64,000 nt of DNA. Origin: Agromyces aurantiacus. GTDB taxonomy: Bacteria; Actinomycetota; Actinomycetes; Actinomycetales; Microbacteriaceae. How positions within the stretch are numbered: the first letter of the stretch is position 1; every line of letters begins with the position of its first letter. The stretch covers positions 2,356,001 to 2,420,000 of the forward strand of contig NZ_JAFBBW010000001.1 in NCBI RefSeq assembly GCF_016907355.1, in the 5' to 3' direction. Below, in pieces: positions 27,840 to 58,387 of the stretch. The notes under the pieces are model-generated. The model saw only the letters and a program-made list of their open reading frames with translations, was not told the origin of the DNA and made no database searches. Made by a program: the position numbers and the translations under genes.

Positions 27840-29662
27840 GACAGGCGACGTCGCAGCAACTCGATGCGGGCCTGCAGCTGCGTCACGGTCGCCTGCGCGA
27901 CCTCGGGCCCGCCGCACGCCCGGCGGAGCTCGGCGTGCACGAGGGAGTGCGCCTGCCCCGTCTGGCGCGCATAGAGACCGACCAGGCTGTTGAGCAGCGA
28001 GCGCTGCTCCTTCAGCGTGCGATACAGCGCGACGGGCTCGGCGGTGCCGGCCTCCTCGCCCTCGCCGCCCGCCTCGGCGGACGCCGCCTGCTTGCGCCGA
28101 TCGGACGCGCGCCGAGCCTGCCGCGCCTGGCGGTGCCGGAGCAGCTCGGCCACCTGGTCGGGCTCGAGGATACCGGGGATGCCGATGAAGTCGAGCTCCT
28201 CGTCGCTGCCCGGCTCGGCGAACGTGCCGAACTCGGTGCCGTCGAAGACGACCCGGTCGAACGTCGCGTCGGAGCCGAGCGCCTGCCACGTGAACTCGGC
28301 CTCGAGCTCGTCGGAGGCCTTCTCGTCGCGATTGGCCGACTCGAGCAGGCCGTCCTCGAGGCCGGGATCGTCGTCGCCGTCGCCGGACCGGCGGTCGAGC
28401 GCGTGGTCGCGCTGGCGCTCGAGCTCGGAGGCGAGCGCCATGAGCACCGGCACGTTCGGCAGGAACACCGAGGCGGTCTCGCCGCGTCGGCGTGCGCGCA
28501 CGAATCGGCCGATCGCCTGCGCGAAGAACAGCGGCGTCGACGAGCTCGTGGCGTACACGCCGACGGCCAGCCGCGGCACGTCGACGCCCTCGGAGACCAT
28601 GCGCACCGCCACCATCCACCGGCTGGTCCCGTTCGAGAACTCCTCGATGCGCGCCGAGGCCTCCTTCTCGTCGGAGAGCACCACGGTGACCTTCTCGCCG
28701 CAGATGCCCTCGAGGATCTCGGCGTACGCGCGCGCGACCGACTGGTCGGTCGCGATCACGAGCCCGCCCGCGTCGGGAATGGCGTGCCGTACCTCGGTGA
28801 GCCGCCGGTCGGCGGCCTGCAGCACCGACGGGATCCACTCCCCGGTCGGCTCGAGCGCCGTGCGCCACGCGGCCGAGTGGATGTCCTTCGTGGCGTCCTC
28901 ACCGAGCCGCGCCTCCATCTCGTCGCCGGCCTTGGTGCGCCAGCGCATGCTGCCGGCGTAGACCATGAAGATCACGGGGCGCACGACGCCGTCGGCGAGC
29001 GCGCGGCCGTAGCCGTAGTCGTAGTCGGTGCTCGAGACGCGGATGCCCTGCGCGTCGGGCTCGTAGTGCACGAACGGGATCGGCGCGGTGTCGCTGCGGA
29101 ACGGCGTGCCCGTCAGCGAGAGACGGCGGGTTGCGGGCTCGAAGGCCTCGCGGATGGCGTCGCCCCACGACAGCGTGTCGCCACCGTGGTGCACCTCGTC
29201 GAGGATCACGAGCGTGCGCCCGGAGAGGGTCAGCTCGCGGTGCAGCGCCGGCCGCACCGCGACCTGCGCGTAGGTCACGGCCACGCCGTGGTAGTGCCGG
29301 GCGCTGCGGCCGTGGGCGTTGCGGAAGCCCGGGTCGAGCCGGATGCCGGCGCGCGCCGCAGCATCCGCCCACTGGCGCTTGAGGTGGTCGGTCGGGGCGA
29401 CCACGGTGATGCGGTCGATGGTGCGTCGGGCGCGCAGCTCGGCGGCGAGGCGCAGCGCGAAGGTGGTCTTGCCTGCGCCGGGCGTGGCGGCGGCGAGGAA
29501 GTCGCGCGGCTCGGTCTCGAAGTAGCGGTCGAGGGCCTCGGCCTGCCAGGCGCGCAGCTTGGAGGCGGTGCCCCAGGGCGCGCGGGCGGGGAACGACGGT
29601 GAGAGGTGCTCGGCGGCCGAGGTGCCCGGCAGGTGGGGGCCGGAAGGGGTCGCGGTGCTCAC
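27830..29662 (-). CDS. DEAD/DEAH-box (SF2) helicase, RadD/XPB-like
   Basis: A 610-aa superfamily 2 ATPase. Walker A is ATPGAGKTTFALRLAAEL (about residue 60), motif II is VILDEVHHGG (about 150), motif III LTGTPFRSD (about 185), and motif VI FAQAIGRFVRARRRGE (about 385). The C-terminal 150 residues are an acidic linker and a helical domain of unknown function. It resembles RadD/XPB-type repair helicases. GTG start with TAGCCT 8 nt upstream and TGTCAGTC 8 nt further (29685-29692), the pattern of PafBC-dependent DNA-damage promoters. Three copies of a 20-bp repeat cover its stop. Confidence 0.88.
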   Translation of the reverse strand: MSTATPSGPHLPGTSAAEHLSPSFPARAPWGTASKLRAWQAEALDRYFETEPRDFLAAATPGAGKTTFALRLAAELRARRTIDRITVVAPTDHLKRQWADAAARAGIRLDPGFRNAHGRSARHYHGVAVTYAQVAVRPALHRELTLSGRTLVILDEVHHGGDTLSWGDAIREAFEPATRRLSLTGTPFRSDTAPIPFVHYEPDAQGIRVSSTDYDYGYGRALADGVVRPVIFMVYAGSMRWRTKAGDEMEARLGEDATKDIHSAAWRTALEPTGEWIPSVLQAADRRLTEVRHAIPDAGGLVIATDQSVARAYAEILEGICGEKVTVVLSDEKEASARIEEFSNGTSRWMVAVRMVSEGVDVPRLAVGVYATSSSTPLFFAQAIGRFVRARRRGETASVFLPNVPVLMALASELERQRDHALDRRSGDGDDDPGLEDGLLESANRDEKASDELEAEFTWQALGSDATFDRVVFDGTEFGTFAEPGSDEELDFIGIPGILEPDQVAELLRHRQARQARRASDRRKQAASAEAGGEGEEAGTAEPVALYRTLKEQRSLLNSLVGLYARQTGQAHSLVHAELRRACGGPEVAQATVTQLQARIELLRRRLSGR

Positions 29663-29670
29663 TGGATGGG

Positions 29671-29692
29671 AGGCTACCCGAGCCGACTGACA
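29671..29692 (-). promoter_or_regulatory. PafBC/RecA-NDp-like promoter of the SF2 helicase gene
   Basis: On the minus strand: TGTCAGTC (29692-29685), an 8-nt spacer, TAGCCT (29676-29671), then 8 nt to the GTG at 29662. The known actinobacterial LexA-independent damage promoter is TTGTCRGTG-N8-TANNNT; seven of the eight positions TGTCRGTG match, and the spacing is exact. Confidence 0.55.
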
Positions 29693-29726
29693 CACGGCCA
29701 GTCGGCGGGCTGTGCAGAATGGAGGG

Positions 29727-30554
29727 ATGGTCACCCAGCAGCACCCCTGGTCGAGGTACGTCGCGATCGGCGACTCGTTCACGGAGGGCATCGGCGACCC
29801 CGAGCCCGGCTCGCCCGGCGGCCACCGCGGCTGGGCCGACCGCGTCGCCGAGGTGCTCTCGCAGGGCACCGACGACTTCGCGTACGCCAACCTCGCGATC
29901 CGGGGCCGGCTGATCCAGCAGATCATCGACGAGCAGGTCGAGCCCGCGCTCGAGCTGCGCCCCGACCTCATCACGATCTCCGCGGGCGGGAACGACGTCA
30001 TCCGGCCGCGCACCGACCCCGACGAGATCTCGGCGCGCTTCGAGTACGCGATCGAGCGGCTCTCCCGCGACCGCGCGACGATCGTGATCTTCACGGGCGT
30101 CGACGTGGGCTTCTCCCCCGTGTTCCGCGGCATCCGCGGCAAGGTCGCGATCTACAACGAGAACCTGCGCGCGATCGCGCAGAAGCACGACTGCATCGTC
30201 GCCGACCAGTGGGCGCTCGCCGAGATCCAGGACCAGCGCATGTGGGACCGCGACCGCCTGCACCTGAACTCGCTCGGGCACCACGAAGTGGCGCGGATGG
30301 TGCTGCGCGCCCTCAACGTCGAGAACGACCTCGAGCCGATGAAGCCCGAGCCGCTGCCCGTGCGGTCGTGGCGTGCGGCGCGCACCGAGGATCTCTCGTG
30401 GGCGCGCGAGTACCTCGTGCCATGGGTGCTGCGCCGCATCCGGCACCAGTCCTCGGGCGACTCCGTCACCGCCAAGCGTCCCGACGCCGGGCCCTACTCC
30501 GTGCGGATCGCGGATGCGCTCGCCGACGAGCCGCCGAGCACCGGCGCCGACTGA
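29727..30554 (+). CDS. SGNH/GDSL hydrolase family protein
   Basis: A 275-aa esterase-like protein with the SGNH blocks: GDSFTEG (nucleophile Ser, about residue 17), NLAIRGR (Gly), ISAGGNDV (Asn, about 88) and DRLHLNSLGH (Asp, His, about 178-185). It lacks a signal peptide, so it is probably intracellular. Substrate unknown. The C-terminal 75 residues beyond the catalytic domain are basic and extended. CAGAAT at 29715-29720 lies 6 nt before ATG 29727, so translation is probably leaderless; GGAGGG directly abutting the ATG is too close to act as a ribosome site. Confidence 0.88.
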   Translation: MVTQQHPWSRYVAIGDSFTEGIGDPEPGSPGGHRGWADRVAEVLSQGTDDFAYANLAIRGRLIQQIIDEQVEPALELRPDLITISAGGNDVIRPRTDPDEISARFEYAIERLSRDRATIVIFTGVDVGFSPVFRGIRGKVAIYNENLRAIAQKHDCIVADQWALAEIQDQRMWDRDRLHLNSLGHHEVARMVLRALNVENDLEPMKPEPLPVRSWRAARTEDLSWAREYLVPWVLRRIRHQSSGDSVTAKRPDAGPYSVRIADALADEPPSTGAD

Positions 30555-30631
30555 CGCGCGAGTTCGCAGGATGGCGCGCCGGATGGCGCCCTCCTCCAAC
30601 CCGCCAGCAGCGTTGGATGCGCCCGGCGACG

Positions 30632-31924
30632 CTAGTCGAGCCCGCCGGGGTTGGTCAGCCGCCACCACGTGCCCGGATCGTCGACGGTGCCGTCGAGCAC
30701 GAGCGGCACCTCGATGCGTTGCGTGCCCGCGGTGACCACGGCGGTGCCGACGTCGGAGCCGTCCTGCGCGAGCCGGATGGGCTCGGCGTCGACCGAGACG
30801 TCCACCGGCGTGTCGGACCACACGACGACGCTCGCCGACTCGGAGGTGCGAGCCGAGGCGGTGTCGCCCCACGGAGTCGAGTAGGTGGCCAGCTCGGTGC
30901 CGGCCTTCACAGCGACCACCTCGTGGAAGCCGGGCGCGATGGTGTCGATCATCTCGGCGATGGCCTGTCGCACCGCCGGATGGTTCGCGCCGCCGAGCAG
31001 CACGCCGACGATCGTCACCGACGACGAGCCGACCGCGACGTCGGCCGAGAACAGCAGGTTCGCCGCGTCATCCGTCGTGCCGGTCTTGATCCCGTCGACG
31101 CCGTGCGTGCCGAGCAGCTTGTTCGAGTTCTTCAGGGTGCCGAGCTCGGGGATGTCGACCTGCTTGGTCGCGACGATGTCGGCGAGGGTCGGCTCCTCGA
31201 GCGCGAGCTGCCCGAGCCGCACCAGGTCGGTCGCGCTCGCCGTGTTCTCGAGCGAGAGCCCGCTCGGGTCGGCGATCCGCAGCGTCGACAGGCCGTGCTC
31301 GTCCGCCCACGCGTTCGCCCGCTCGACGTAGGCGTCGACGGACCCGAAGCCCCAGACGGCGAGCGAGTTCGCGTAGTTGTTGCCCGAGGGCAGGAGCATC
31401 GCCTCGAGGCTCTCCTTGAGGCTCAGTGTCGAGCCTGGCACCACCGGAGCGACGGAGCCGTTCTGGGCGACCATGTCCCAGTAGATCGCGACGTCGGCAT
31501 CGGTGTACCGGATGTCGGGGCCGCCCTCGCCCGCCGGGATCGGGTGCTGCTCGAGCAGCACGAGCGATGTGACGACCTTCGCGATGCTCGCGATCGGCAT
31601 GGACGACGCCTCGTTCCCCGCGGCCAGCGTGCCGTCGAAGCCGACGGCGCCGACGGCCCACGCCCCGAAGTCGGGCTGGTCGACGACCTGGGGCGCCGCG
31701 GCGAGGGGCGCCGGGTCGATGACGGCCGGCGCGGCGGCGGGCACGGGGGCGCCGAGCGTCGTGGTGGCGTACGCACCGCCGCCCACGAGCCCCGCGAGGA
31801 GCATGCCGAGGGTGCCGAAGACGACGAACCGGCGACGGCGGTACACCCGCGCGGAGGGGCGGGGCGACCGGTCTGCGGTGAGAGCGGCCGGGGCGGGAGG
31901 GGCCGGGGCGGGTGTTCGAGCCAT
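30632..31924 (-). CDS. D-alanyl-D-alanine carboxypeptidase (penicillin-binding protein, peptidase S11)
   Basis: A 430-aa low-molecular-weight PBP that trims the terminal D-Ala of peptidoglycan stem peptides. An N-terminal membrane anchor (VVFGTLGMLLAGLVGGGAYA, residues about 34-53) follows a basic cytoplasmic tail. Active-site motifs are SIAK (SxxK, about residue 114), SGN (about 177) and KTG in DGIKTGTTDDAANLL (about 290). A C-terminal beta domain completes it. TATCCT (complement of 31932-31937) lies 7 nt before the ATG, a clear leaderless arrangement in a 23-bp gap after the next gene. Confidence 0.93.
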   Translation of the reverse strand: MARTPAPAPPAPAALTADRSPRPSARVYRRRRFVVFGTLGMLLAGLVGGGAYATTTLGAPVPAAAPAVIDPAPLAAAPQVVDQPDFGAWAVGAVGFDGTLAAGNEASSMPIASIAKVVTSLVLLEQHPIPAGEGGPDIRYTDADVAIYWDMVAQNGSVAPVVPGSTLSLKESLEAMLLPSGNNYANSLAVWGFGSVDAYVERANAWADEHGLSTLRIADPSGLSLENTASATDLVRLGQLALEEPTLADIVATKQVDIPELGTLKNSNKLLGTHGVDGIKTGTTDDAANLLFSADVAVGSSSVTIVGVLLGGANHPAVRQAIAEMIDTIAPGFHEVVAVKAGTELATYSTPWGDTASARTSESASVVVWSDTPVDVSVDAEPIRLAQDGSDVGTAVVTAGTQRIEVPLVLDGTVDDPGTWWRLTNPGGLD

Positions 31925-31947
31925 CCGTTGCAGGATACCCAGCGGAG

Positions 31948-32745
31948 CTATGCGAGCGCGTACAACGCGACGGCCGCGGCCGCCGCGACGTTCAGCGAAT
32001 CGACGCCGTGCGCCATGGGGATGGTGACGACGGTGTCGGCGGCCGCGAGCGCCTGCCGCGAGAGCCCATCGCCCTCGGCGCCGAGCACCAGCGCGAGGCG
32101 CTCGGGCGGATCGGCGGCGAGCTGGCGCATCGTGACCGCGTCGTCGCTCAGGGCGAGGGCGGCCACGCGGAAGCCGTGCCCGGTGAGCAGCTCGCGCGCC
32201 GCCTGCCACTCGGGGAGCCGGGTCCACGGCACCTGGAACACGGTGCCCATGCTCACCCGCACGCTGCGCCGGTAGAGCGGGTCGGCGCACCGCGGCGTCA
32301 CGAGCACCGCATCGGCGCCGAGCGCGGCGACCGAGCGGAAGATCGCGCCGACGTTGGTGTGGTCGACGATGTCCTCGAGGATCGCGACGCGCCGAGACGC
32401 CGCGAGCAGCACGCCGGGGTCGGGCAGGGCGGGCCGCTCGAACGCGGCGAGCGCGCCGCGGTGCACGCGGTAGCCCGTGATCGCCTCGAGCTGGGCGGGG
32501 TCGGCGAGGTGCACGGGGATGTCGAACGGCTCGAGCGCGGCCTGCAGGCCGGGCAGCCACTTCTCCTCCATGAGCACCGAGCGGGGCACGCATCCGGCGT
32601 CGAGGGCCCGGCGGATCACCTTGGCCGACTCGGCGATGAAGATGCCGCGCTCCGGTTCGGTGATGCTGCGCAGCGCCACATCCGTCAGACTGGCGTAGTC
32701 GGCGACGGCGTCGGTCGCGGCGTCCCGCACGTGTTCGATTCGCAT
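31948..32745 (-). CDS. SpoU/TrmH-family RNA 2'-O-methyltransferase
   Basis: A 265-aa SPOUT methyltransferase. The N-terminal substrate-binding domain (RGIFIAESAKVIRRALDAG) is followed by the trefoil-knot catalytic domain with the three family motifs: VDHTNVGAIFRSVAALGADAVLV, LVLGAEGDGLS and IPMAHGVDSLNVAAAAAVAL. It probably methylates a ribose in tRNA or rRNA; the specific site is not predictable. CAGGCT lies 6 nt before the ATG on the coding strand. It sits upstream of and close to the carboxypeptidase gene. Confidence 0.92.
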   Translation of the reverse strand: MRIEHVRDAATDAVADYASLTDVALRSITEPERGIFIAESAKVIRRALDAGCVPRSVLMEEKWLPGLQAALEPFDIPVHLADPAQLEAITGYRVHRGALAAFERPALPDPGVLLAASRRVAILEDIVDHTNVGAIFRSVAALGADAVLVTPRCADPLYRRSVRVSMGTVFQVPWTRLPEWQAARELLTGHGFRVAALALSDDAVTMRQLAADPPERLALVLGAEGDGLSRQALAAADTVVTIPMAHGVDSLNVAAAAAVALYALA

Positions 32746-32826
32746 GGGTCAAGCCTGCCGGGTGCCGGAAACAATCCGGAAACGTCGGGCGTTGAGAATC
32801 TGGAGCACCGCAGGAAGGGAGAGCCC

Positions 32827-33672
32827 GTGGTCACTGGGATCGACGTGCCGGCCCCGAGCGGCGTCCTGCTCGACGAGGCGATCGGCCTGATGCGCGGCGC
32901 TCGCGTGGCCGTGCTCACGGGCGCGGGGGTCAGCACCGACTCGGGCATCCCCGACTACCGCGGCGCGGGAGCGCCGCCGCGCAGCCCGATGACGTTCCAG
33001 ACGTTCCTCAACTCCGAGAGCGCGCGCAAGCGCTACTGGGCGGGCAGCCACCTCGGCTGGCGGCACTTCGGCGCCGCCGAGCCGAACGACGGGCATCGCG
33101 CGCTGGCCGCGCTCGAGGCGGGCGGCGTCGTGTCGGGCGTGGTCACGCAGAACGTCGACGGGTTGCACCGCCGGGCCGGCAGCACGCATGTCGTCGAGCT
33201 GCACGGCGCATCCGACCGGGTGCTGTGCCTCTCGTGCGGGCAGGTGTTCGCGCGCCAGTCGATCGCCGAGCGGCTCGAGCAGCTCAACCCGCACATCGAC
33301 CTCGAGGTCGCCATCCGCCCCAACCCCGACGGCGACGTCGACGTCGACGACCCCGACGCGATCGTGATCCCCGAATGCACCGTGTGCGGCGGCGTGCTCA
33401 AGCCCGACGTGGTCTTCTTCGGGGAGTTCGTGCCGACGCCCGTCTACCGGCAGGCGGCCTCGCTCGTGCAGGGCGCCGACGTGCTGCTCGTGGCGGGTTC
33501 CTCGCTCGTCGTGAACTCGGGCGTGCGCCTGCTCGAGATCGCGCGGCGCCGGCGGGTGCCGATCATCGTCGTGAACCGCGGCGTCACGAAGGGCGACGCG
33601 CGCGCGACCGTCAAGCTCGACGCGGGCGCCACCGAGACGCTCACGGCGATGGCGGAGGCGCTCGTCGCCTGA
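32827..33672 (+). CDS. NAD-dependent protein deacetylase (sirtuin)
   Basis: A 281-aa Sir2-family enzyme. NAD-binding motif GAGVSTDSGIPDYRG (about residues 30-45), TQNVDGLHRRAG (about 105) and the catalytic His in VELHG are present. The zinc ribbon has CLSCG and CTVCGG pairs. An acidic insertion (PNPDGDVDVDDPDA) lies between the Cys pairs. It removes acyl groups from protein lysines. GTG start preceded by AAGGGAG, so unlike many neighbours it has a normal ribosome binding site. It is divergent from the SpoU gene. Confidence 0.95.
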   Translation: MVTGIDVPAPSGVLLDEAIGLMRGARVAVLTGAGVSTDSGIPDYRGAGAPPRSPMTFQTFLNSESARKRYWAGSHLGWRHFGAAEPNDGHRALAALEAGGVVSGVVTQNVDGLHRRAGSTHVVELHGASDRVLCLSCGQVFARQSIAERLEQLNPHIDLEVAIRPNPDGDVDVDDPDAIVIPECTVCGGVLKPDVVFFGEFVPTPVYRQAASLVQGADVLLVAGSSLVVNSGVRLLEIARRRRVPIIVVNRGVTKGDARATVKLDAGATETLTAMAEALVA

Positions 33673-33709
33673 CCGCGCGGGTCGCGATCGGCTCGCTCTG
33701 CGGACCGGG

Positions 33710-34804
33710 TCAGCGCCGCGCGTGCGCCGCGCGCCCGTTCGCCTCGCCGACCTCGAGCAGCAGCTCGAGGAGCCGCTCGGCGGACGCACTCCAGGTGAAG
33801 CGACCCACCAGGTCGGCGGATGCCGCGGAGCGGCGCTCCCATTCGCCCGGCTCGTCGAGCGACGCGATCGCCCGGGCCGCGGCGTCGGCGTCGTCGGCCG
33901 GGAAGTACACGGCCGCGTCGCCGCCGATCTCACGGAAGATCGGGATGTCGGTGACCACGACGGGCGTGCCGAACCGCATGGCCTCGACGAGCGGGATGCC
34001 GAATCCCTCGGCCTTCGACGCGGTCACGAGCGCGGTCGCGCCGGCCAGGAGCTCGGCGTACTCGGCGTCGGTCGCCCCGTCGTGGAACACGAGCCGCGCC
34101 TCGGGCGCGAGCCGGGTGAGCCGGCGCCGCTCCTCATCGGAGATGCGGCTCATGAGGTGCAGCTCGTGGTCGGGCAGCAGGGCGGCGGCGCGCACGAGCG
34201 TGTCGACGCCCTTGTACGACATGAACGAGCCCATGTAGACGAGGTGCTTCGCGGTCGGCCGGGTGCGCGGCAGCTCCGGCGTGCCGAGTTCGTCGGCGGC
34301 GTTGTGCACGACCGTGAGGGGCCGCCTCGTGAGCCGGTGCGTCCGGATCAGGCCGGCGCTCGTCTCCGAGACGGTGACGACCGCGTCGGCGCGGTTCAGC
34401 AGCATCCGCTGCGGCCACCACGCCAGGTGGTAGAGGCGCCACAGCCCGCGCACGAACGCGGGCAGGTCGCGCGGCGGCGTGCGGTTCTCGTAGTAGATGA
34501 GGTCGTGCAGGGTGAGCACGAGGCCGTAGTCGCGCCCCCACGAGCCCATCGTCTGCATGGGCGAGAACACGACGTCGGGCCTGAGCTTGCGCACCTGCCG
34601 GGCGACCCACGGCTCGCGCGGGCTCGTCGGGCTGCTGACGAGCTCCCAGGGCAGCGCGGGCAGCTTCGCGAGCTGGCGGTGGTCGCTGATGAGCATGGTG
34701 ACCGGATGCCGCCGGCCGATCTCGGCCACGAGCGCCGCCGTGAAGCGACTGATGCCGTCGTGGTGGTCGATGCGCACGTAGCGGCAGTCGAACACGATCC
34801 TCAC
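33710..34804 (-). CDS. glycosyltransferase family 4 protein
   Basis: A 364-aa GT-B glycosyltransferase. The N-domain starts MRIVFDCRYVRIDHHDGISRFTAALV, and the C-domain has the nucleotide-sugar site: YMGSFMSYKGVDTLVRA, then LVTASKAEGFGIPLVEAMRFGTPVVVTDIPIFREIGGDAA with the E-x7-E motif. It probably adds a mannosyl or related residue to a surface glycan or lipid; donor and acceptor are unknown. Start GTG 34804 within a GTGA overlap with the hydrolase stop (34801-34804), so the two are coupled. Confidence 0.9.
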   Translation of the reverse strand: MRIVFDCRYVRIDHHDGISRFTAALVAEIGRRHPVTMLISDHRQLAKLPALPWELVSSPTSPREPWVARQVRKLRPDVVFSPMQTMGSWGRDYGLVLTLHDLIYYENRTPPRDLPAFVRGLWRLYHLAWWPQRMLLNRADAVVTVSETSAGLIRTHRLTRRPLTVVHNAADELGTPELPRTRPTAKHLVYMGSFMSYKGVDTLVRAAALLPDHELHLMSRISDEERRRLTRLAPEARLVFHDGATDAEYAELLAGATALVTASKAEGFGIPLVEAMRFGTPVVVTDIPIFREIGGDAAVYFPADDADAAARAIASLDEPGEWERRSAASADLVGRFTWSASAERLLELLLEVGEANGRAAHARR

Positions 34805-35715: not shown

Positions 35716-35747
35716 CCGTGTCATCCTACGGCGCGGCGCCTGAGCGC

Positions 35748-35769
35748 TGTCGGCGGGCGCGGATACCGT
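35748..35769 (+). promoter_or_regulatory. PafBC/RecA-NDp-like promoter of the DnaQ-like exonuclease gene
   Basis: TGTCGGCG at 35748-35755, 8 nt, then TACCGT at 35764-35769, with ATG 7 nt later at 35777. Compared with TGTCRGTG-N8-TANNNT there is one mismatch. The downstream gene is a DEDD exonuclease, consistent with a damage-response target. Confidence 0.55.
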
Positions 35770-35776
35770 GACCGGC

Positions 35777-49164: not shown

Positions 49165-49186
49165 TGTCGCCGGGGCCCGGCAGACT
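49165..49186 (+). promoter_or_regulatory. PafBC/RecA-NDp-like promoter of the AlkZ-like gene
   Basis: TGTCGCCG at 49165-49172, 8 nt, CAGACT at 49181-49186, then 6 nt to ATG 49193. Six of eight positions of TGTCRGTG match and the spacing is exact. It is weaker than the other three, but the gene is also of a DNA-repair-like family. Confidence 0.4.
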
Positions 49187-50376: not shown

Positions 50377-50392
50377 GGGTGCGTCGTGCGTC

Positions 50393-50959
50393 CTACTCCT
50401 GGACGAGCGCCGCCTGCAGCTCGATCGTGATCGTGACCTGCTCGCCGACGAGCACGCCGCCGGTCTCGAGGGTCGCGTTCCATGTGAGGCCGAAGTCCTC
50501 GCGGTTGATCACGGTCTTCGCGGTCGCGCCGCCCTTGTAGTTGCCGTACGGGTCGGTGCCGAACCCGCCGAAGTCGAAGTCGAAGGTGACGGGCTTCGTG
50601 ACGCCCTTGATCGTGAGGTCGCCGTCCACCTTGAAGTCACCGCCCTCGACGCGGACACCGGTCGAGACGAACTCGATCGTCGGGTACTGCTCGGCCTGGA
50701 AGAAGTCGTTCGTGCGCAGGTGCGCATCGCGGTTCGGCTCGTTCGTGTTGATCGAGGCGACCTCCGCCGTCGCGGTCACGCGCGAGTCCAGCGGGTCGGC
50801 CCCGGTCTCGAACGTGGCGTCGAAGCGCTCGAACTTGCCCTTGACCTTGCTGATCATGAGGTGTCGGACGCTGAAGGCCACCTCGCTGTGCGTCGGGTCG
50901 ATCTTCCAGGTGCCGGCGCGGTAGCCGGGGATCTCGATCGTCGTCTCGGTCGTCGTCAT
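50393..50959 (-). CDS. YceI family lipocalin-like protein
   Basis: A 188-aa polyisoprenoid-binding-type barrel. The family opening GTWKIDPTHSEVAFSVRHLMISKVKGKFERFDATF and the later KVDGDLTIKGVTKPVTFDFDFGG and INREDFGLTWNATLETGGVLVGEQVTITIELQA are complete. No signal peptide, so it is cytoplasmic, as usual in actinobacteria. Its role is unclear; it may bind lipophilic isoprenoids. It is unusually low in Ala/Arg for this genome and likely well expressed. Confidence 0.93.
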   Translation of the reverse strand: MTTTETTIEIPGYRAGTWKIDPTHSEVAFSVRHLMISKVKGKFERFDATFETGADPLDSRVTATAEVASINTNEPNRDAHLRTNDFFQAEQYPTIEFVSTGVRVEGGDFKVDGDLTIKGVTKPVTFDFDFGGFGTDPYGNYKGGATAKTVINREDFGLTWNATLETGGVLVGEQVTITIELQAALVQE

Positions 50960-51029
50960 GCGGTTGCTCCCAGTGGTTGCTCTGCGGCCGATCGGCCACA
51001 GTCAATGCAAACGCATGAAGGTTCGCGAT

Positions 51030-52205
51030 CTATTCCCGACCGGCGAGCGTGATCTCCCGACGCAGTTCCAGCACGCGCTCGGCCGCGTCGTCGAGGCGCT
51101 CCATCGGGATCCGTCCGGCCGCGACGGCCGCGGCGACCGAGCCGACGAGCCCGTCGACGCTGATCCCGAACTCCGACGGGTCGGCCGGCAGCACGTAGAG
51201 CAGCAGGTCGCCGCCCGCGGCGATCGCGCGGACCGCGTTCTCGCCCGGGTCGGCGTACTCCGGCAGCTCGTTGTGCTGCAGCATGAGCATGTCGTCGGTG
51301 ACCACGACCCCGTCGAACCCGAGCTCGTCGCGCAGGATCCGGTGCCATTCGGGCGACAGCGACGCCGGCGCGGCATCGACCGCGGGGTACGCGAGGTGGC
51401 CGGTCATCACCAGTTCCGCACCGGCATCGATCCCTGCGCGGAACGGCACCGAGGCGCCCCCACGCCAGTCGTCGAGCGTGAGCGGCGCGCTCGGGATCGA
51501 CGTGTGGGAGTCGCCGGGCGCGGCGCCGTGGCCCGGAAAGTGCTTGAGCGTGGTCGCCACCACGCCGTGCTCGCCGTCGACGGCGGCGGCGACGCGCTCG
51601 GCCGCAGTGGCGGGATCGGTGCCCAGGACGCGCTCGAAGATGAACGAGCCCGGGTCGGCCGTGACATCCGCCACGACGCCGAAGTTGACGTTCACGCCCG
51701 ACGCCGCGAGCGCCGCGGCCCTGGCGGCGAACGCGTCGCGGACCGCGTCGGCGGGCTGACCGCGCAGGTCGCCGGGCGCGGGTGCGGGGTCCCACGGGAT
51801 CCGGCTCACGATCCCGCCCTCCTGGTCGATGCCGACGAGCGTCGCGGCCTCGGGGTCGGTCTGGAGCGCCCCCGCGAGCGCGGCGGTGGCGGCCTGGTCG
51901 GGCGGGATGTTGTCGCCCATGAGGATCACGCCCGCGATGCCCTGGTCCACGAGCGCCCGCAGCGGGGCGGGGTCGGTGCCCGGCGCGTGGAGCATGAGCA
52001 GGGAGGCGGCCTTCTGCTCGACGGACATCCCGGCCACGCGTTCGGCGGCCCACTCGGCGGCCGTCGGCGGGGTCGGGGTGGGCGTCGGCGATGGGGTGTG
52101 GGCGGCCGTCGGCGTTGCCGAGGGCGCGGCCGCGGGCCCGGCGCATCCGGCGAGCATCGACAGCGCGACCGCGGCGGTCAGGAGGGAGGGGACGGCGCGA
52201 CGCAC
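51030..52205 (-). CDS. glycoside hydrolase family 3 lipoprotein (NagZ-like beta-N-acetylhexosaminidase)
   Basis: A 391-aa exported lipoprotein. Signal and lipobox MRRAVPSLLTAAVALSMLAGC, then a Ser/Thr/Pro-rich linker (residues about 24-48). The GH3 barrel has LVGIDQEGGIVSRI, the NagZ-type TTLKHFPGHGAAPGDSHTSIP (general acid/base His) and nucleophile Asp in FDGVVVTDDMLML. It should remove terminal GlcNAc from muropeptides or glycans at the cell surface. TAGACT (complement of 52212-52217) lies 6 nt before GTG 52205; a leaderless start. Confidence 0.92.
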   Translation of the reverse strand: MRRAVPSLLTAAVALSMLAGCAGPAAAPSATPTAAHTPSPTPTPTPPTAAEWAAERVAGMSVEQKAASLLMLHAPGTDPAPLRALVDQGIAGVILMGDNIPPDQAATAALAGALQTDPEAATLVGIDQEGGIVSRIPWDPAPAPGDLRGQPADAVRDAFAARAAALAASGVNVNFGVVADVTADPGSFIFERVLGTDPATAAERVAAAVDGEHGVVATTLKHFPGHGAAPGDSHTSIPSAPLTLDDWRGGASVPFRAGIDAGAELVMTGHLAYPAVDAAPASLSPEWHRILRDELGFDGVVVTDDMLMLQHNELPEYADPGENAVRAIAAGGDLLLYVLPADPSEFGISVDGLVGSVAAAVAAGRIPMERLDDAAERVLELRREITLAGRE

Positions 52206-52260
52206 CGGGCGAGTCTACGACGCCGCGGATCGGAGGCGGCTCCGAGGCAGGGTAGAACGG

Positions 52261-53088
52261 ATGGTGATGAACCTCGACGAGCACGACCGCGAGATCCTGC
52301 GCCGGTACGCGGCCGACGCCACCTTCATGGCGGGCGGTGCGGCGGCGATCCTGCTGCAGCTCGCCGATCCGCGCATCGCCGCCGGGGTGGCCCGGCACAG
52401 CGGGTTCCGCGAGCGCCCGCTCGACCGGCTCGCGGCGACCCACCAGTACCTGATGGCGCTGTGGTTCGGCGACGAGCGCGACATCCGGGCCGTGGTCCGT
52501 GCCGTGAACGCCCGACACGCGCACGTGCGCGGCGACGACGCGCCCCGGTACGACGCGCGTGAGCCCGACGCACAGCGCTGGGTGGCCGCGACGATCCTGC
52601 ACGTCGGCACCGACCTCGAACGGCGGATGTCGCGCAGGCCGCTCGACCCGGCGACGGCCGACGCACTCGTCCGCGCCTACGCCCCGCTCGCCGGACGCCT
52701 GCAGGGCGCCTCGGCCGGATGGCCGTCGACCCGCGCGGAGTTCGACGCCTGGTGGTCCGAGCGGCTGTCGCACCTCGAGGTCGGCCCCGAGGCGCGCGCG
52801 GTCGCGCGCGACCTGCTCGCCGGCACTGGCCTGCCCGCGCCGCTGCGCCCGCTCATGGCGCCCGTGCGCCTGGTGACGGTCGCGCTGCTGCCGCCCGAGG
52901 TCCGAGCGGGCTACGGCTTCGGGTGGACGCCGCGCATCCAGCGGGTCGCGGGCGCCTGGATCGCGGTGCTCGGTGCCGCCCGGCGCATCGTGCCGATGCC
53001 GGTGCGCACCATTCCCATGCGGATATCGCTCCGGCGCGTGCGGCAGCGCAGCCGCTACGCTGAGGGTGACCTGCGAGGACGAGGATGA
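52261..53088 (+). CDS. oxygenase MpaB family protein (DUF2236)
   Basis: A protein of about 275 residues of the latex-clearing protein/MpaB family. The characteristic heme-region sequence is LRRYAADATFMAGGAAAILLQLADPRIAAGVARHSGFRERPLDRL, with later ILHVGTDLE. Some family members bind heme b and oxygenate; a specific substrate cannot be given. The start is unsettled among ATG 52261, GTG 52264 and ATG 52267; TAGAAC at 52253-52258 would suit the last two. Its stop overlaps the next start as ATGA (53085-53088). A basic C-terminal end (RISLRRVRQRSR) is present. Confidence 0.82.
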   Translation: MVMNLDEHDREILRRYAADATFMAGGAAAILLQLADPRIAAGVARHSGFRERPLDRLAATHQYLMALWFGDERDIRAVVRAVNARHAHVRGDDAPRYDAREPDAQRWVAATILHVGTDLERRMSRRPLDPATADALVRAYAPLAGRLQGASAGWPSTRAEFDAWWSERLSHLEVGPEARAVARDLLAGTGLPAPLRPLMAPVRLVTVALLPPEVRAGYGFGWTPRIQRVAGAWIAVLGAARRIVPMPVRTIPMRISLRRVRQRSRYAEGDLRGRG

Positions 53089-53579
53089 CCCAGCACGCAT
53101 CGCACCGCGGCGAGCCGCTCGACGCGATCGACCGACGCATCGTCGCGGAACTGAGCCGCGACGGCCGGCTCTCGGTGCGCACCCTCGCCGAGCGCGTGCA
53201 CATCTCCCGCACGGCGGCGCACAACCGCGTGCTCGCGCTGCAGCAGCGCGGGGTGATCACGGGGTTCGGCGCGCAGATCGACCGCAAGGCGATCGGCCTG
53301 AACATCTCCGCGCTCGTGGTGGTCCGCATCGGCGACGTCTCGTGGGAGGAGATCGCAGCCAAGCTCGCGACGCTGCCCTTCGTCGAGAAGGTGCAGGCCG
53401 TCTCGGGCGACATCGACATCATCCTCACCGTCAGCGCGCCCGACCACGAGCAGCTGAGCCAGGCGATCCTGCGCGACATCCACGACATGCCGGGCGTCGT
53501 CTCGACGCGGTCGCACCTGATCCTCGCCGAGATCGACGGTCGCCCGCCCGCGCAGTCGCTGGACATCTGGCGCTCCTGA
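53085..53579 (+). CDS. Lrp/AsnC-family regulator (BkdR-like)
   Basis: A 164-aa regulator with an HTH (LDAIDRRIVAELSRDGRLSVRTLAERVHISRTAAHNRVLALQQRG) and a RAM domain (VEKVQAVSGDIDIILTVSAPDHEQL). It directly precedes the branched-chain dehydrogenase operon, as BkdR does in other bacteria. It would sense branched-chain amino acids and control that operon. Unusually it is translated with an upstream oxygenase-like gene through an ATGA overlap. GAGGACGAGG before the ATG is an additional ribosome site. Confidence 0.88.
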   Translation: MTQHASHRGEPLDAIDRRIVAELSRDGRLSVRTLAERVHISRTAAHNRVLALQQRGVITGFGAQIDRKAIGLNISALVVVRIGDVSWEEIAAKLATLPFVEKVQAVSGDIDIILTVSAPDHEQLSQAILRDIHDMPGVVSTRSHLILAEIDGRPPAQSLDIWRS

Positions 53580-53686
53580 GCCGCGTTTCACGGACGCGCG
53601 GCATCCGTTGCGCACGCGGCGTGCCGTTCGTTCACGGTTGCGCCGTACCCCGAGCGGGGGGCCGGAGACTGTCGCACCATGGCCGT

Positions 53687-54835
53687 ATGAGCCTCAACGT
53701 CGAGCATCACGAGACCCGCGTCCTGCCCTCCGAGAAGCCCCTGCGACTGCTGGACAACGCCGGCCATGCGCTGCACGGCCGCGAGACCGGCGGCTTCGAG
53801 CTGCCGCCCGTCGAGACCCTGCTCGAGCTCTACCGGCGCATGGTCATCGCCCGCCGCTTCGACGTGCAGGTCACGGCGCTGACCAAGCAGGGCCGGCTCG
53901 CGACCTACCCGTCGGCGTACGGCCAGGAGGCCTGCGAGATCGGCGTGATCTCGGCGATCACCGCCGACGACTGGTTCTTCCCCACCTACCGCGACAGCAT
54001 CGCCCTGCTCACGCGCGGGCTCGCGCCCGCCGAGATCCTCCAGTCGTTCCGCGGCGACTGGCACAACGGCTGGGACCAGCACGCCCACCGCACCGCCTCC
54101 ATGGCCACCCCGCTCGCCACGCAGGCGCTGCACGCCGTCGGCCTCGCGCACGCCGCCCGGCTGCGCCGCGACCCCATCGTGACCCTCACCTACCTCGGTG
54201 ACGGCGCCACGAGCGAGGGCGACGCGCACGAGGCGTTCAACTTCGCCGCCGTCTGGCAGACGCCGACCGTGTTCCTCGTGCAGAACAACCAGTTCGCCAT
54301 CAGCACGCCGCTCGCCAGGCAGACGCACGCGACGACCCTCGCCGACAAGGCGGTCGGTTATGGCATGCCCGGGTACCACGTCGACGGCAACGACATCGCC
54401 GCGATGTACGCGGTCGCGTCGGCCGCCGTCGAGCGCGCCCGTTCGGGCGGCGGCCCCACGCTCATCGAGGGCCTGACCTACCGCATCGAGTCGCACACGA
54501 ACTCCGACGACCCCACGCGGTATCGCCAGCAGCGCGACGTCGAGCACTGGAAGCGGCGCGACCCGATCGAGCGGCTCGAGAAGTACCTGGTGTCGGAGGG
54601 CGCGCTCACCGACGTCGTCCGGGCCGAAATCGGCGAGGCGGCCGAGGAGCTCGCGGCGCGCACCCGCGACGCCATGTCGGAGGAGCCGCAGCTCGACCCG
54701 CTCGAGCTCTTCGACCACGTCTACGCGACGCCGCGGGCCGCGCTCGCCGAGCAGCGCGCCGCGCTCGAGGCCGAGCTGGCCGCGCACGCCGCGCACGTCG
54801 CGCACGCCGGCGCCGCGGGGGTGCCCGCCCGATGA
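53687..54835 (+). CDS. bkdA: branched-chain 2-oxoacid dehydrogenase E1 component, alpha subunit
   Basis: A 382-aa thiamine-diphosphate subunit. LYRRMVIARRFDVQVTALTKQGRLATYPSAYGQEAC is the family N-domain. The ThDP-binding motif is LGDGATSEGDAHEAFNFAAVWQTPTVFLVQNN (GDG-x26-NN). The phosphorylation-loop region is YRIESHTNSDDPTRYR. Substrate could be branched-chain oxoacids or pyruvate; the BkdR-like regulator and fused E2 favour the former. CACCAT lies 6 nt before ATG 53687. The tail is Ala-rich. It is coupled to the next gene by ATGA (54832-54835). Confidence 0.9.
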   Translation: MSLNVEHHETRVLPSEKPLRLLDNAGHALHGRETGGFELPPVETLLELYRRMVIARRFDVQVTALTKQGRLATYPSAYGQEACEIGVISAITADDWFFPTYRDSIALLTRGLAPAEILQSFRGDWHNGWDQHAHRTASMATPLATQALHAVGLAHAARLRRDPIVTLTYLGDGATSEGDAHEAFNFAAVWQTPTVFLVQNNQFAISTPLARQTHATTLADKAVGYGMPGYHVDGNDIAAMYAVASAAVERARSGGGPTLIEGLTYRIESHTNSDDPTRYRQQRDVEHWKRRDPIERLEKYLVSEGALTDVVRAEIGEAAEELAARTRDAMSEEPQLDPLELFDHVYATPRAALAEQRAALEAELAAHAAHVAHAGAAGVPAR

Positions 54836-55860
54836 GCACCGCCGCGACCGAACGCGCAGCGGATGCCGCGGCATCCGCCCCGCAGCCCCTGACCATGGCC
54901 GGCGCGCTCAACGCCGCGCTCCGCGACGCGATGGAGGCCGACGACCGCGTCGTCGTCTACGGCGAGGACGTCGGGCCGCTCGGCGGCGTCTTCCGCGTCA
55001 CCGACGGCCTGCAGGCCCGGTTCGGCGACGAGCGCGTCTGGGACTCGCCGCTCGCCGAGTCCGGCATCGTCGGCACGGCCGTCGGCATGGCCATGTACGG
55101 CCTCCGGCCCGTCGTCGAGATGCAGTTCGACGCGTTCAGCTACCCGGCCTTCGAGCAGATCGTCTCGCACGTCGCCAAGATGCGGAACCGCACGAAGGGC
55201 CACGTCAGCCTTCCGATGGTGATCCGCATCCCGTGCGCGGGCGCCATCGGGGGCGTCGAGCACCACTCCGACTCCTCGGAGGCGTACTGGGCCGCGACAC
55301 CCGGCCTCACCGTGGTCATGCCGTCCAACCCGGCCGACGCGTACTCGATGCTGCGCGAGGCGATCGAGAGCGACGACCCGGTCGTGTTCATGGAGCCCAA
55401 GAGCCGCTACTGGTCGAAGGCGACCCTCGAGCTGCCCGTGCGGACGGAGCCGATGGACCGGGCGCAGGTCGTCCGCGAGGGGTCGGATGTCACGCTCATC
55501 GGCTACGGCCCGACCGTGCGCACCGCGCTCGACGCGGCTGCCGCGGCCGAGGCCGAGGGGCTCTCGATCGAGGTGGTCGACCTGCGGAGCCTCTCGCCGT
55601 TCGACGACGAGACGGTCGGCGCGTCGGTGCGCAAGACGTCGCGCGCCGCCGTCATCCACGAGGCCGCCCAGTTCGGCGGCTACGGCGCCGAGGTCGCGGC
55701 ACGACTGACCGAGCGGAACTTCTTCCACCTCGCCGCGCCGATCCTGCGCATCACCGGATGGGACATCCCGTACCCCTCGCCCAAGCTCGAGGAGCACCAC
55801 CTGCCGACGCCCGATCGCGTGCTCGACGCGCTCGCCTCGTGGGAATGGGACCTGGCATGA
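54832..55860 (+). CDS. bkdB: branched-chain 2-oxoacid dehydrogenase E1 component, beta subunit
   Basis: A 342-aa transketolase-like subunit. ALNAALRDAMEADDRVVVYGEDVGPLGGVFRVTDGLQARFG (with the catalytic Glu in GEDVG), SPLAESGIVGTAVGMAMYGLRPVVEMQF and VIRIPCAGAIGGVEHHSDSSEAYW are typical. The C-domain VTLIGYGPTVRTALDA binds E1-alpha and E2. Forms the alpha2beta2 E1 tetramer with the preceding gene. ATGA overlaps on both sides fix the start and stop. Confidence 0.93.
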   Translation: MSTAATERAADAAASAPQPLTMAGALNAALRDAMEADDRVVVYGEDVGPLGGVFRVTDGLQARFGDERVWDSPLAESGIVGTAVGMAMYGLRPVVEMQFDAFSYPAFEQIVSHVAKMRNRTKGHVSLPMVIRIPCAGAIGGVEHHSDSSEAYWAATPGLTVVMPSNPADAYSMLREAIESDDPVVFMEPKSRYWSKATLELPVRTEPMDRAQVVREGSDVTLIGYGPTVRTALDAAAAAEAEGLSIEVVDLRSLSPFDDETVGASVRKTSRAAVIHEAAQFGGYGAEVAARLTERNFFHLAAPILRITGWDIPYPSPKLEEHHLPTPDRVLDALASWEWDLA

Positions 55861-57392
55861 GCGCGCGCGAGTTCATCCTGCCCGACCTCGGCGAGGGCCT
55901 GACCGAGGCCGAGGTCGTCGCGTGGCTCGTCCAGCCCGGCGACGAGGTCGCGATCGACCAGCCCGTCGTCGAGCTCGAGTCGGCCAAGTCGGTCGTGCAA
56001 CTGCCGACGCCGTTCGCCGGCGTCGTGGAGTCGCTTGGCGGCGACGTCGGCCAGGTGCTCCACGCCGGCGACGTGCTCATGCGGCTCACTCCGGTCGGCG
56101 CGGCCGCGGGATCGCCCGCCGAAGCACCGTCCGCGGCCGACGCGGAGGTGCGCGCAGACCGCGCTGGCGCGCCCGCGTCCGCGTCCGCGCCGGTCGCCGC
56201 CGAGCCCGGCGTCGCCGTGCCGACCGAGGCCGCCTCCGAGGAGTCGGGCGCCGTGCTCATCGGCTACGGCACCCGGACCAGCGCCGCGACCGCGCGGTCG
56301 TCGACGGCGCCGTCGCGATTCGGCGCCCGGCGTGCCGGTGCGGGCGCGGCGACCGAACGCGCCGCCTCCCCCGCTGCGCCCGCCGAACCGCCGGCTGCGC
56401 GACCCGAACCTGCCGCGGCCGCGACCGAGGATCCGCGCGACGCGCTCGACCACGACCGGCACTCCCCCGTCGTCTCCCCGATCGTCCGCAGGCTTGCGCG
56501 CGAGCACGGCTTCGACGCATCCGAGTTGCTCGGCTCGGGTGCCGACGGACTCGTCACGCGCGCGGACGTCGAGGCGTTCATCAGCGAGCTCGACGCGGCA
56601 CGCGCCGGCACGCACACCGGCGTCACCGCCGCGCACGCGGGCGCCGCGCCATCCGTCAGCCCGCCCGCCGCCGCACGGCCCGCGGCATCACCGGTCGCCA
56701 AGGGCGAGCACCGCGTCCCCCTCGACCGCACCGGCCGCGCGGCCGCCGCGCACTTCACGCGGTCGCGCCGGGAGATCCCCGAGGCGACCGTGTGGATGGA
56801 CGTCGACGCGACCGGGCTGCTGGCCGCGCGCCGTCAGCTGCAGGAGGCCACGGGCGAGCGCTTCGGCCTGACCGCGCTCGTCGCGCGATTCGTCGTCGCC
56901 GCCCTCACGCGCCACCCGTCGCTCAATGCGAGCTTCGACGCCGAGCGCGACGAGCTCGTCATGCACTCGGCGATCAACCTCGGGCTCGCCGCGCAGACCC
57001 CGCGCGGGCTGCTCGTGCCGGTCGTGCACGGCGCCGAGCGGATGTCGCTGCGCGAGCTGCGCGACGCGGTGCAGGCGCGCACCGAGCAGGCCGGCTCCGG
57101 CGCGTTCCCGCCGGACGCGCTCGCGGGCGGCACGTTCACGTTCAACAACTACGGCACCCTGGGCGTGGACGGATCGGCCGCCATCATCAACCACCCCGAG
57201 GCCGCGATGCTCGGCATCGGGCGGCTGCTCGAGCGACCGTGGGTCGTCGACGGGCAGCTCGCGGTGCGCACGGTCACCGAGCTGACCCTCTCGTTCGACC
57301 ACCGAGTCTGCGACGGCGCCGAGGCTGCGGCGTTCCTGACCGACGTCGCGCGCTGCATCGAGCATCCGATCTCGCTGCTCGCGGACCTCTGA
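55857..57392 (+). CDS. bkdC: dihydrolipoamide acyltransferase (E2) of the 2-oxoacid dehydrogenase complex
   Basis: A 511-aa E2 core protein. Residues 1-80 are the lipoyl domain with the lipoylated Lys in ELESAKSVVQLPTPFAG. A long Ala/Pro linker (about 80-195) precedes a peripheral-subunit-binding domain (VVSPIVRRLAREHGFDASELLGSGADGLVTRADVEAFI). After a second linker comes the catalytic domain, with the acyltransferase motif SFDHRVCDGAEAAAFL (His and Asp). No E3 gene follows, so dihydrolipoamide dehydrogenase is encoded elsewhere. A terminator follows at 57430-57462. Confidence 0.93.
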   Translation: MSAREFILPDLGEGLTEAEVVAWLVQPGDEVAIDQPVVELESAKSVVQLPTPFAGVVESLGGDVGQVLHAGDVLMRLTPVGAAAGSPAEAPSAADAEVRADRAGAPASASAPVAAEPGVAVPTEAASEESGAVLIGYGTRTSAATARSSTAPSRFGARRAGAGAATERAASPAAPAEPPAARPEPAAAATEDPRDALDHDRHSPVVSPIVRRLAREHGFDASELLGSGADGLVTRADVEAFISELDAARAGTHTGVTAAHAGAAPSVSPPAAARPAASPVAKGEHRVPLDRTGRAAAAHFTRSRREIPEATVWMDVDATGLLAARRQLQEATGERFGLTALVARFVVAALTRHPSLNASFDAERDELVMHSAINLGLAAQTPRGLLVPVVHGAERMSLRELRDAVQARTEQAGSGAFPPDALAGGTFTFNNYGTLGVDGSAAIINHPEAAMLGIGRLLERPWVVDGQLAVRTVTELTLSFDHRVCDGAEAAAFLTDVARCIEHPISLLADL

Positions 57393-57429
57393 CGGCTCGC
57401 GGGCCGCTGGGCTCCGGCCCTCGGAACGA

Positions 57430-57462
57430 CCGAGGCGCACCCCACGACGGGGTGCGCCTCGG
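57430..57462. terminator. bidirectional terminator between bkdC and the next gene
   Basis: A perfect 14-bp stem (57430-57443 with 57449-57462) with loop ACGAC sits between two converging genes. Being perfect on both strands, it can end both transcripts. Confidence 0.85.
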
Positions 57463-57484
57463 CCGTGTCCGGGCTCCAGCCGGA

Positions 57485-58000
57485 TCAGAAGAAGTCGTCG
57501 GGCGTGCCCGCGGCGCGCTCGACATCGCGCGTCTCGATGCGTGCGGCGGCGAGCTTGGCCACCGCCACGCGGAGGCCGGATTCCATCTGCGCGGCCCAGG
57601 CGTCGGACTCGCGCGCGGTCGTCTCCGCGGCGCGGGCGCGGGCTTCGGCGGCGTCGGCGGCGCGACGCGCGTCGGCCACCTGGCGCAGCGCGAGCGAGAT
57701 GCCGTAGTAGGCCGCGACCATCGTCGCGATGGGCGCCGCGACGACCGCGAGGGCACTCACGCCGGCGCCGTTGGGGGTGAAGGCGACGACGAGTGCGAAG
57801 GCGAGGAACAGCGCCGCGATCGCGACGATGACCACGAGCATGAAGCGGAGGTCGCGGCTCCAGGCGGTCGAGCGGCGGGCCGACGACTCGGCCGCCGGTT
57901 CGGTTGAGGCGGGCTCGGGCGGGGCGGCGAACACGGCCGTGTCGCCGTACGCGGCGGAGCCGAGCGTCGGATCGGAGGTTCGGGAGGTCGTATCGCTCAT
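57485..58000 (-). CDS. hypothetical membrane protein with C-terminal coiled coil
   Basis: A 171-aa protein of no family I recognise. The N-terminal 45 residues are disordered and Ala/Ser/Pro-rich. Two spans follow (FMLVVIVAIAALFLAFALVVAF, ALAVVAAPIATMVAAYYGISLAL). After them an Ala/Arg/Glu heptad-rich segment (RQVADARRAADAAEARARAAETTARESDAW) is predicted to be a coiled coil. It ends in DDFF. A strong sigma-70-type promoter lies upstream (58034-58062), and AAGGGA before the ATG is a ribosome site. Confidence 0.75.
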   Translation of the reverse strand: MSDTTSRTSDPTLGSAAYGDTAVFAAPPEPASTEPAAESSARRSTAWSRDLRFMLVVIVAIAALFLAFALVVAFTPNGAGVSALAVVAAPIATMVAAYYGISLALRQVADARRAADAAEARARAAETTARESDAWAAQMESGLRVAVAKLAAARIETRDVERAAGTPDDFF

Positions 58001-58033
58001 GTCGCGGATCCCTTGCGTTCGGAACGTCCCCTC

Positions 58034-58062
58034 ATTCTGTGCCGCGTTCGGGGGGCGGTCAA
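58034..58062 (-). promoter_or_regulatory. near-consensus housekeeping promoter
   Basis: On the minus strand TTGACC (58062-58057), a 17-nt spacer and CAGAAT (58039-58034). It is one of the closest matches in the window to a standard -35/-10 pair, and it drives the membrane coiled-coil gene with a leader of about 27 nt. Confidence 0.7.
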
Positions 58063-58143
58063 GGAAGCGCGCCGTCGGCGTGCGCCGCGCAGGCCTGTCT
58101 CCGTCCGGGCCCCCGCGGCGCCGGCCGAGCCCCGCGACGACGA

Positions 58144-58165
58144 TGTCGGTGGGTCCTGAGATGCT
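58144..58165 (+). promoter_or_regulatory. PafBC/RecA-NDp-like promoter of the 71-aa gene
   Basis: TGTCGGTG at 58144-58151 is a full match to TGTCRGTG. Eight nucleotides later comes GATGCT at 58160-58165, and ATG 58172 follows after 6 nt. The -10 has G in place of the first T but keeps A and the final T. Confidence 0.55.
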
Positions 58166-58171
58166 CTCAGT

Positions 58172-58387
58172 ATGGAACCCGTCGAACTCAAGCAGACCCG
58201 GGAGCTCGCCGTCGGCGACACGCTGGTCAGCGCGACCGGCGGCGTCTACGAGATCACGAAGCTGACCCGCATCGGCCGTGGCATTCGCGTGCAGTACACG
58301 ACGCCCGAAGGCCGTTCGGGCCGGTTCACCGCGGCGCCCGATGCCGTCACGCGCGTGCGACCCGCCGGCTCGCTGCACGCGGCGTAG
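58172..58387 (+). CDS. small hypothetical protein, possible SH3-like barrel
   Basis: A 71-aa protein of unknown family. The sequence alternates short strands (LAVGDTLVSATGGVYEITKLTRIGRG, IRVQYTTPEGRSGRFTA), suggesting a compact SH3/Tudor-like beta barrel. Lacks membrane spans and Cys. Its promoter (58144-58165) is the best match in the window to the LexA-independent damage motif, so it may be damage-inducible. Start ATG is fixed by the leaderless spacing. A terminator at 58438-58466 follows. Confidence 0.7.
   Translation: MEPVELKQTRELAVGDTLVSATGGVYEITKLTRIGRGIRVQYTTPEGRSGRFTAAPDAVTRVRPAGSLHAA

Follow-up and report, generated by a model that had tools for sequence, protein, structure and literature searches.

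Introduction

According to the model outlined in parts of PMC11804915, PMC8223512, PMC6789036 and PMC5656591, which were mainly concerned with mycobacteria, single-stranded DNA activates PafBC, and the sigma-A RNA polymerase then accepts promoters that carry a −26 motif. The consensus of these RecA-NDp promoters appears in a portion of PMC5656591 as tTGTCRgtg-8 nt-TannnT, in which the leading T is lower-case, being weakly conserved. Promoters of the recA/uvrA type with an added LexA box are also reported for mycobacteria in a portion of PMC8223512. Here, we describe four promoters in a 64,000-nucleotide (nt) stretch of the genome of Agromyces aurantiacus (Microbacteriaceae), hereafter referred to as the window. 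They precede the genes of an SF2 helicase, a DnaQ-like exonuclease, an AlkZ-like DNA glycosylase family protein and a protein of 71 amino acids (aa). Judging from the sequence comparisons below, these promoters very probably belong to the PafBC (RecA-NDp) DNA-damage regulon of this Agromyces or represent variants of it.

Related systems have been described outside mycobacteria. DriD of Caulobacter is likewise a WYL activator that is activated by single-stranded DNA and is independent of SOS (portions of PMC12340889 and PMC6789036); it belongs to another phylum and is likened to PafBC by the type of activator, not by the target motif. In Streptomyces coelicolor, RecA-NDp promoters with the same motif were found at recA and SCO6735, and the latter gene was 5-fold inducible by ultraviolet light (a portion of PMC5087735). 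For S. venezuelae, an initial search pointed to a lack of conservation of the M. smegmatis motif, and the question is left open in the portion of PMC9380542 that deals with it. The type of regulon is already known; the host, the extent of the regulon there and some of the predicted targets are new. Our literature search, in which most subscription papers were not covered, gave no paper joining PafBC with Microbacteriaceae or PafBC with AlkZ, and nothing joining Agromyces, the DNA damage response and a regulon.

Results and discussion

Structure of the four promoters

The first-pass annotation of the window had proposed four promoters in which TGTC is located at one fixed position, with an 8-nt gap, NANNNT and 6–8 nt to the start codon. 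All of these elements were found where it had placed them (Table 1), and the RecA-NDp consensus that it gave agrees with the version printed in PMC5656591, as far as the relevant portion goes. The −26 element TGTCR is present in all four promoters, and the 8-nt gap from the TGTCRGTG-type element to the −10 element is exact in each of them. A −10 element of the form TANNNT is found in two, namely those of the helicase (TAGCCT) and the DnaQ-like exonuclease (TACCGT). At the AlkZ-like gene, an alternative in-frame GTG start lies only 3 nt past CAGACT. The annotation had also assigned pafBC to 6850–8885, and the domains of both proteins were identified in this interval.

Table 1 Promoters, genes and regulatory elements of the window (positions are those of the window)
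Feature	Position	Strand	Description
PafC	6850..7869	minus	HTH_PafC, WYL, WCX
PafB	7866..8885	minus	WYL + WCX; no HTH model matched
SF2 helicase, 610 aa	27830..29662	minus	ResIII + Helicase_C domains
SF2 helicase promoter, PafBC-type	29671..29692	minus	TGTCAGTC (29692-29685), N8, TAGCCT (29676-29671), N8, GTG 29662
DnaQ-like exonuclease promoter, PafBC-type	35748..35769	plus	TGTCGGCG, N8, TACCGT, N7, ATG 35777
DEDDh exonuclease, DNA polymerase III epsilon-like (PRK07942), 233 aa	35777..36478	plus	
AlkZ-like gene promoter, PafBC-like	49165..49186	plus	TGTCGCCG, N8, CAGACT (non-canonical −10), N6, ATG 49193
AlkZ-like DNA glycosylase family protein (PF06224), 369 aa	49193..50302	plus	
71-aa gene promoter, PafBC-like	58144..58165	plus	TGTCGGTG, N8, GATGCT (non-canonical −10), N6, ATG 58172
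Inverted repeat TGAGA-N3-TCTCA over the −10 of the 71-aa promoter	58157..58169		Candidate operator for a second regulator
71-aa protein, predicted small beta barrel	58172..58387	plus	

Occurrence of the motif in the window and the genome

In the window, the loose pattern TGTC-N12-NANNNT occurs 12 times, and at spacings of 15, 18 and 21 it occurs 15, 12 and 12 times, respectively. The strict pattern TGTC-N12-TANNNT occurs twice, at the helicase and DnaQ-like promoters. Since the loose pattern is unremarkable in the window, the case rests on evidence from outside it.

In the whole genome (one contig of 3,884,057 bases), TGTC-N12-TANNNT was found at 49 sites, versus 21 for the reversed pattern. 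When TGTCR followed by TANNNT was counted at spacings of 7 to 19, 127 sites were obtained (123 for the reversed pattern, about 9.5 per spacing). Forty-five of them fell on spacing 12, versus 82 over the other twelve spacings (mean 6.8; Poisson, 4e-22). The extended form TGTCRGNG-N8-TANNNT occurs 23 times, versus once when reversed. A coding start is located 6–9 nt downstream in 31 of the 49 sites, and at 6 or 7 nt in 26 of these, the start codons having been assigned by a simple rule based on the G+C content by codon position, so that individual starts may be wrong. Among 40 off-spacing controls, taken in order from the matches listed after exclusion of three rows sharing or adjoining another site, 9 have a start at this distance (Fisher, 1.3e-4). 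The chance argument of the first-pass annotation, that four such promoters are far above expectation, is weakened by the loose counts in the window; chance is exceeded for the spacing in the genome and for the register within the genus described below.

The loose counts, together with the 9 start-proximal controls among 40, speak for the view that these promoters are of a leaderless housekeeping type, with TGTC present by accident or as a weak −35 box. A −35 box, however, needs about 17 nt to the −10 element, and TTGTCR lies only 10 nt from it. The spacing-specific excess in the genome, the repair genes among the targets and the exact register in orthologues are also contrary to this view, which we regard as scarcely credible. 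The register tests oppose it for the sites as a class, although an individual site could be accidental.

Predicted targets

The proteins downstream of 42 of the 49 sites were scanned (all but those of L042, L047, L050, L053, L059, L060 and L067). At least 18 of the 49 sites were found to precede genes for replication or repair. These include recA (L003), recF, uvrA (L054), uvrB (L004), mfd, a UvrD/PcrA-type helicase, a second UvrD-like protein, radA, recQ, ruvA, rarA, dnaX, xseB, SRAP, an RNase_H_2 nuclease and an AlkZ-like protein (L065), and the helicase and DnaQ-like exonuclease of the window are counted among them. The names radA, recQ, recF, rarA and dnaX were read from domains and sequence, and the NCBIfam match of mfd is below the cut-off because the protein piece is cut. 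Four further targets carry nuclease or DNA-modification domains (Mrr, OLD-like TOPRIM, HsdM and an RNase_T exonuclease). No repair domain was found behind the start-proximal off-spacing controls (0 of 8, 8 of the 9 having been scanned). The genome scan that the first-pass annotation had suggested gave a motif that is enriched at one spacing, often start-proximal and located ahead of repair genes including recA.

Among the remaining targets are transporters, hydrolases and proteins with no family assignment. The sites L039, L041, L046, L062, L063, L070, L072 and L073 lie ahead of genes for MFS, EamA and ABC transporters and hydrolases, and they may reflect either damage-linked detoxification or chance. 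In the window itself, CGTCGGCG-N8-TAGCAT, which is laid out like the other sites except that C replaces the first T, is located at 27740–27761 on the minus strand, 7 nt ahead of the ATG of an EmrB-like MFS transporter gene.

Orthologous promoters within and beyond the genus

For the register test, the best match in each same-genus genome having one was used, our genome included. NANNNT located 6–9 nt before an in-frame start was picked blind to TGTC, and the position of TGTC was read afterwards. TGTC was found at spacing 12 in 53 of the 72 promoters of the four genes, and at most once at any other spacing from 6 to 28. It is in register in 16 of 19 helicase promoters (NGTC in 19 of 19), 13 of 19 AlkZ-like promoters (NGTC in 17 of 19) and 15 of 15 promoters of the 71-aa gene; the 19 DnaQ-like promoters carry TGTC (9), TGAC (7) or TGTG (3). 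The mean frequency of the commonest base is 0.49–0.60 in the 22 upstream columns and 0.65–0.79 in the rest of the spacer, and the TGTC columns mostly reach 0.84–1.0, with the lowest value of 0.63 in the third column of the DnaQ-like promoters. Matches of the helicase itself were obtained in 29 of 30 genomes, counting our own.

TGACGG replaces TGTCGG in register at part of the Agromyces DnaQ promoters (e.g., L130, L131, L189 and L191-L201), and the TGAC variant is enriched over 60 Agromyces genomes (225 vs 71).

The DnaQ-like gene was also followed in named loci, the best 80 of 99, which are mostly labelled Microbacteriaceae, with a Sinomonas, one locus labelled Planococcus and unplaced metagenome-assembled genomes. 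The first 27 of the 80 listed relatives are all Agromyces, and the top identity is 93%. In these 80 loci, TGTC and TANNNT are separated by 12 nt in 46 cases and by 8 nt in one, with none at any remaining spacing between 4 and 20. A few of the 46 sites lie away from the start codon, and a one-base variant is present in 21 further loci. Outside the genus, the motif was found in 6 of 11 DnaQ-like loci, 4 of them with TANNNT, though several are about 33–46% identical and may not be orthologues. One AlkZ locus outside the genus carries GGTCGGTG-N8-TAGCGT in register. The comparison of orthologous promoters proposed in the first-pass annotation accordingly supports all four genes within the genus, and does not support the helicase and AlkZ-like genes beyond it. 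Taken with the genome scan, it favours the interpretation of the four promoters as part of a putative damage regulon.

The paf locus and the motif across the phylum

The paf locus (window 3239–11763) contains, in order, genes for a helicase, TatC, TatA, PafC, PafB, FKBP and a TrmI-like protein; the PafC match in the genome is G000:C1:2363456-2363824. No Pup or proteasome domain was found at this locus, the rest of the genome not having been searched for them, and the scant space between the FKBP and TrmI-like genes leaves no room for proteasome genes.

The survey of the phylum comprised 396 genomes, 38 from the same class as our genome and 358 others. In the former, by counts transcribed by hand, the motif exceeds the control in 38 of 38 genomes (1357 vs 109 in total), by a factor of three or more in 35 of them, and all 38 have a PafC match at E ≤ 1e-15. 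Among the latter, 158 genomes with a PafC-type match at this threshold gave 714 vs 271 sites, and 200 without one gave 693 vs 526. The HTH_PafC model also matches five named control genomes, including those of E. coli and B. subtilis, and so lacks specificity for PafC.

Several observations weigh against assigning the four promoters to the PafBC regulon. As for the phylum, the motif and PafC track each other imperfectly outside the class. Family f27 gave 148 vs 78 sites, although strong PafC matches are absent from its 38 genomes. Conversely, clear enrichment is lacking in f25 (24 vs 12), f18 (35 vs 25), f56 (11 vs 18) and f38 (15 vs 23), where PafC-type matches are mostly present. As for the genome, 24 of the 42 scanned targets have no plain role in replication or repair, and the leading T is missing, TTGTC being found in 0 of the 49 sites. 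As for the promoters themselves, the AlkZ-like (CAGACT) and 71-aa (GATGCT) promoters lack the first T of TANNNT; TGAC or TGTG stands in place of TGTC in 10 of the 19 DnaQ-like promoters of the genus; neither the motif nor its one-base variant occurs in 13 of the 80 named DnaQ-like loci; and outside the genus the motif is absent from the helicase loci (0 of 8) and from further AlkZ loci (0 of 11, paralogues included).

The −10 variants and the 71-aa gene

In the listed genus orthologues of the AlkZ-like and 71-aa promoters, the first −10 position is also without T. These promoters are conserved C/G-A-N3-T variants at the −10 element, not full RecA-NDp members. This conservation, and that of the palindrome across the −10 element of the 71-aa promoter, would fit a mixed case, in which the helicase and DnaQ-like genes are PafBC targets while the AlkZ-like and 71-aa genes (with CANNNT and GANNNT, respectively) mainly depend on another factor, with a weak PafBC effect or none. 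Such a division is unlikely in view of the −26 elements: TGTCGGTG is found in 14 of the 15 promoters of the 71-aa gene (TGTCGGCG in the remaining one), NGTC is kept in register at most AlkZ-like promoters as given above, and the second AlkZ-like gene, L065, has the promoter TGTCGGCA-N8-TAGGGT, although a third, L107, shows no motif at its promoter.

The promoter core of the 71-aa gene is the best conserved among the four genes. Its palindrome, TGAGA-N3-TCTCA, occurs nowhere else in the genome as an exact copy. The repeat is perfect in 11 of the 12 main-clade promoters, where the centre bases vary, and absent from three more distant ones. Eighty-four relatives of the protein were obtained, and all organisms named among the matches listed are Agromyces. 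Its structure model, of middling quality, is a small barrel. We read this promoter as PafBC-like with a putative private second operator. It is conceivable, though doubtful, that the gene is a damage switch with two inputs. PafBC would activate it via TGTCGGTG, and a local regulator devoted to it, perhaps the 71-aa protein itself, would repress it via the −10 palindrome; the SH3/Tudor-like barrel would then be induced by damage, associate with RNA polymerase, nucleic acid or the ribosome, and tune the PafBC response in Agromyces.

LexA boxes

No LexA box with up to 3 mismatches was found upstream within 200 nt at the four sites, the only matches in this range being inside coding regions. At the recA and uvrA sites, an additional LexA box with a single mismatch is present. 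A perfect LexA box, TCGAACATGTGTTCGA, is located at window 15210–15225, upstream of a gene of the DNA polymerase III alpha type (17602–21057), which is probably part of a LexA-controlled dnaE2 mutasome cassette. Because LexA boxes and PafBC-type sites occur in one genome, both responses appear to coexist here, as in mycobacteria.

Streptomyces

In the group g17, eleven genomes gave 31–74 motif sites versus 1–6 for the control. One of them, G359, was identified as Streptomyces by its PafC, since all organisms named among the matches listed belong to this genus. In 1.18 Mb of G359, TGTCRG-N10-TANNNT was found 13 times, versus 0–3 times at other spacings and 0 times when reversed; 7 of the 13 sites lie 6–9 nt ahead of a start, and 6 have the leading T. 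A scan covering 10 of the 13 proteins encoded downstream identified five as dnaX, radA, recQ, pcrA and an HhH-GPD glycosylase (sites within L307-L365). From these spacing-specific sites, it follows that the motif is present in this Streptomyces, and its dependence on PafBC is predicted. In PMC5087735, the RecA-NDp promoters of Streptomyces are described for single genes, whereas here a 1.18-Mb stretch of one genome was examined with a spacing control.

Proposed mechanism and comparison with mycobacteria

As in the mycobacterial model, single-stranded DNA arising from damage would bind PafBC, and PafBC would join the sigma-A RNA polymerase on the promoter, where PafB would read the −26 element (here TGTC[G/A]G) instead of a −35 box. 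Transcription would start at the start codon or only a few bases away from it, and leaderless mRNAs are predicted from this short distance. PafBC binding, PafBC dependence, damage induction and leaderless translation are all predictions for these promoters. The terms PafBC and leaderless occur together in two of the papers listed by the literature search. Alternatively, ClgR might recognise the TGTC element, in place of PafBC or alongside it: according to a portion of PMC5656591 citing Wang et al. 2011, recognition of the same P1/RecA-NDp promoter by ClgR was reported in M. smegmatis. Activation of P1 is nevertheless assigned to PafBC in portions of PMC5656591 itself and of later papers, and a role of ClgR here is highly improbable.

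The gene pafC is located next to tatA/tatC in mycobacteria, and this order is shared by the locus in Agromyces. The −26 TGTCR, the 8-nt spacing, TANNNT, the repair targets, and recA and uvrA with a LexA box are shared as well. The regulon here differs from the mycobacterial one in several ways. One is in the motif, which lacks the leading T, often has C, A or G at position 7 and includes TGAC variants. Another is that most sites lie 6–9 nt from the start, the leaderless share in mycobacteria being outside this comparison. The third is in the targets, among which are the AlkZ-like protein, the PRK07942-type exonuclease and the 71-aa protein. The last is in the paf locus, where proteasome genes have no room from FKBP to TrmI-like.

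The literature on PafBC is mainly mycobacterial, and a controlled list of targets is provided here for Microbacteriaceae. The motif is also seen over a megabase of a genome of Streptomyces, the genus in which its conservation was left open, with regard to S. venezuelae, in the cited portion of PMC9380542. The predicted damage response is extended by two AlkZ-like glycosylases, one of them encoded elsewhere in the genome, together with an exonuclease, a helicase and the small 71-aa protein, and the predominance of sites close to the start codon makes damage-induced leaderless translation directly testable.

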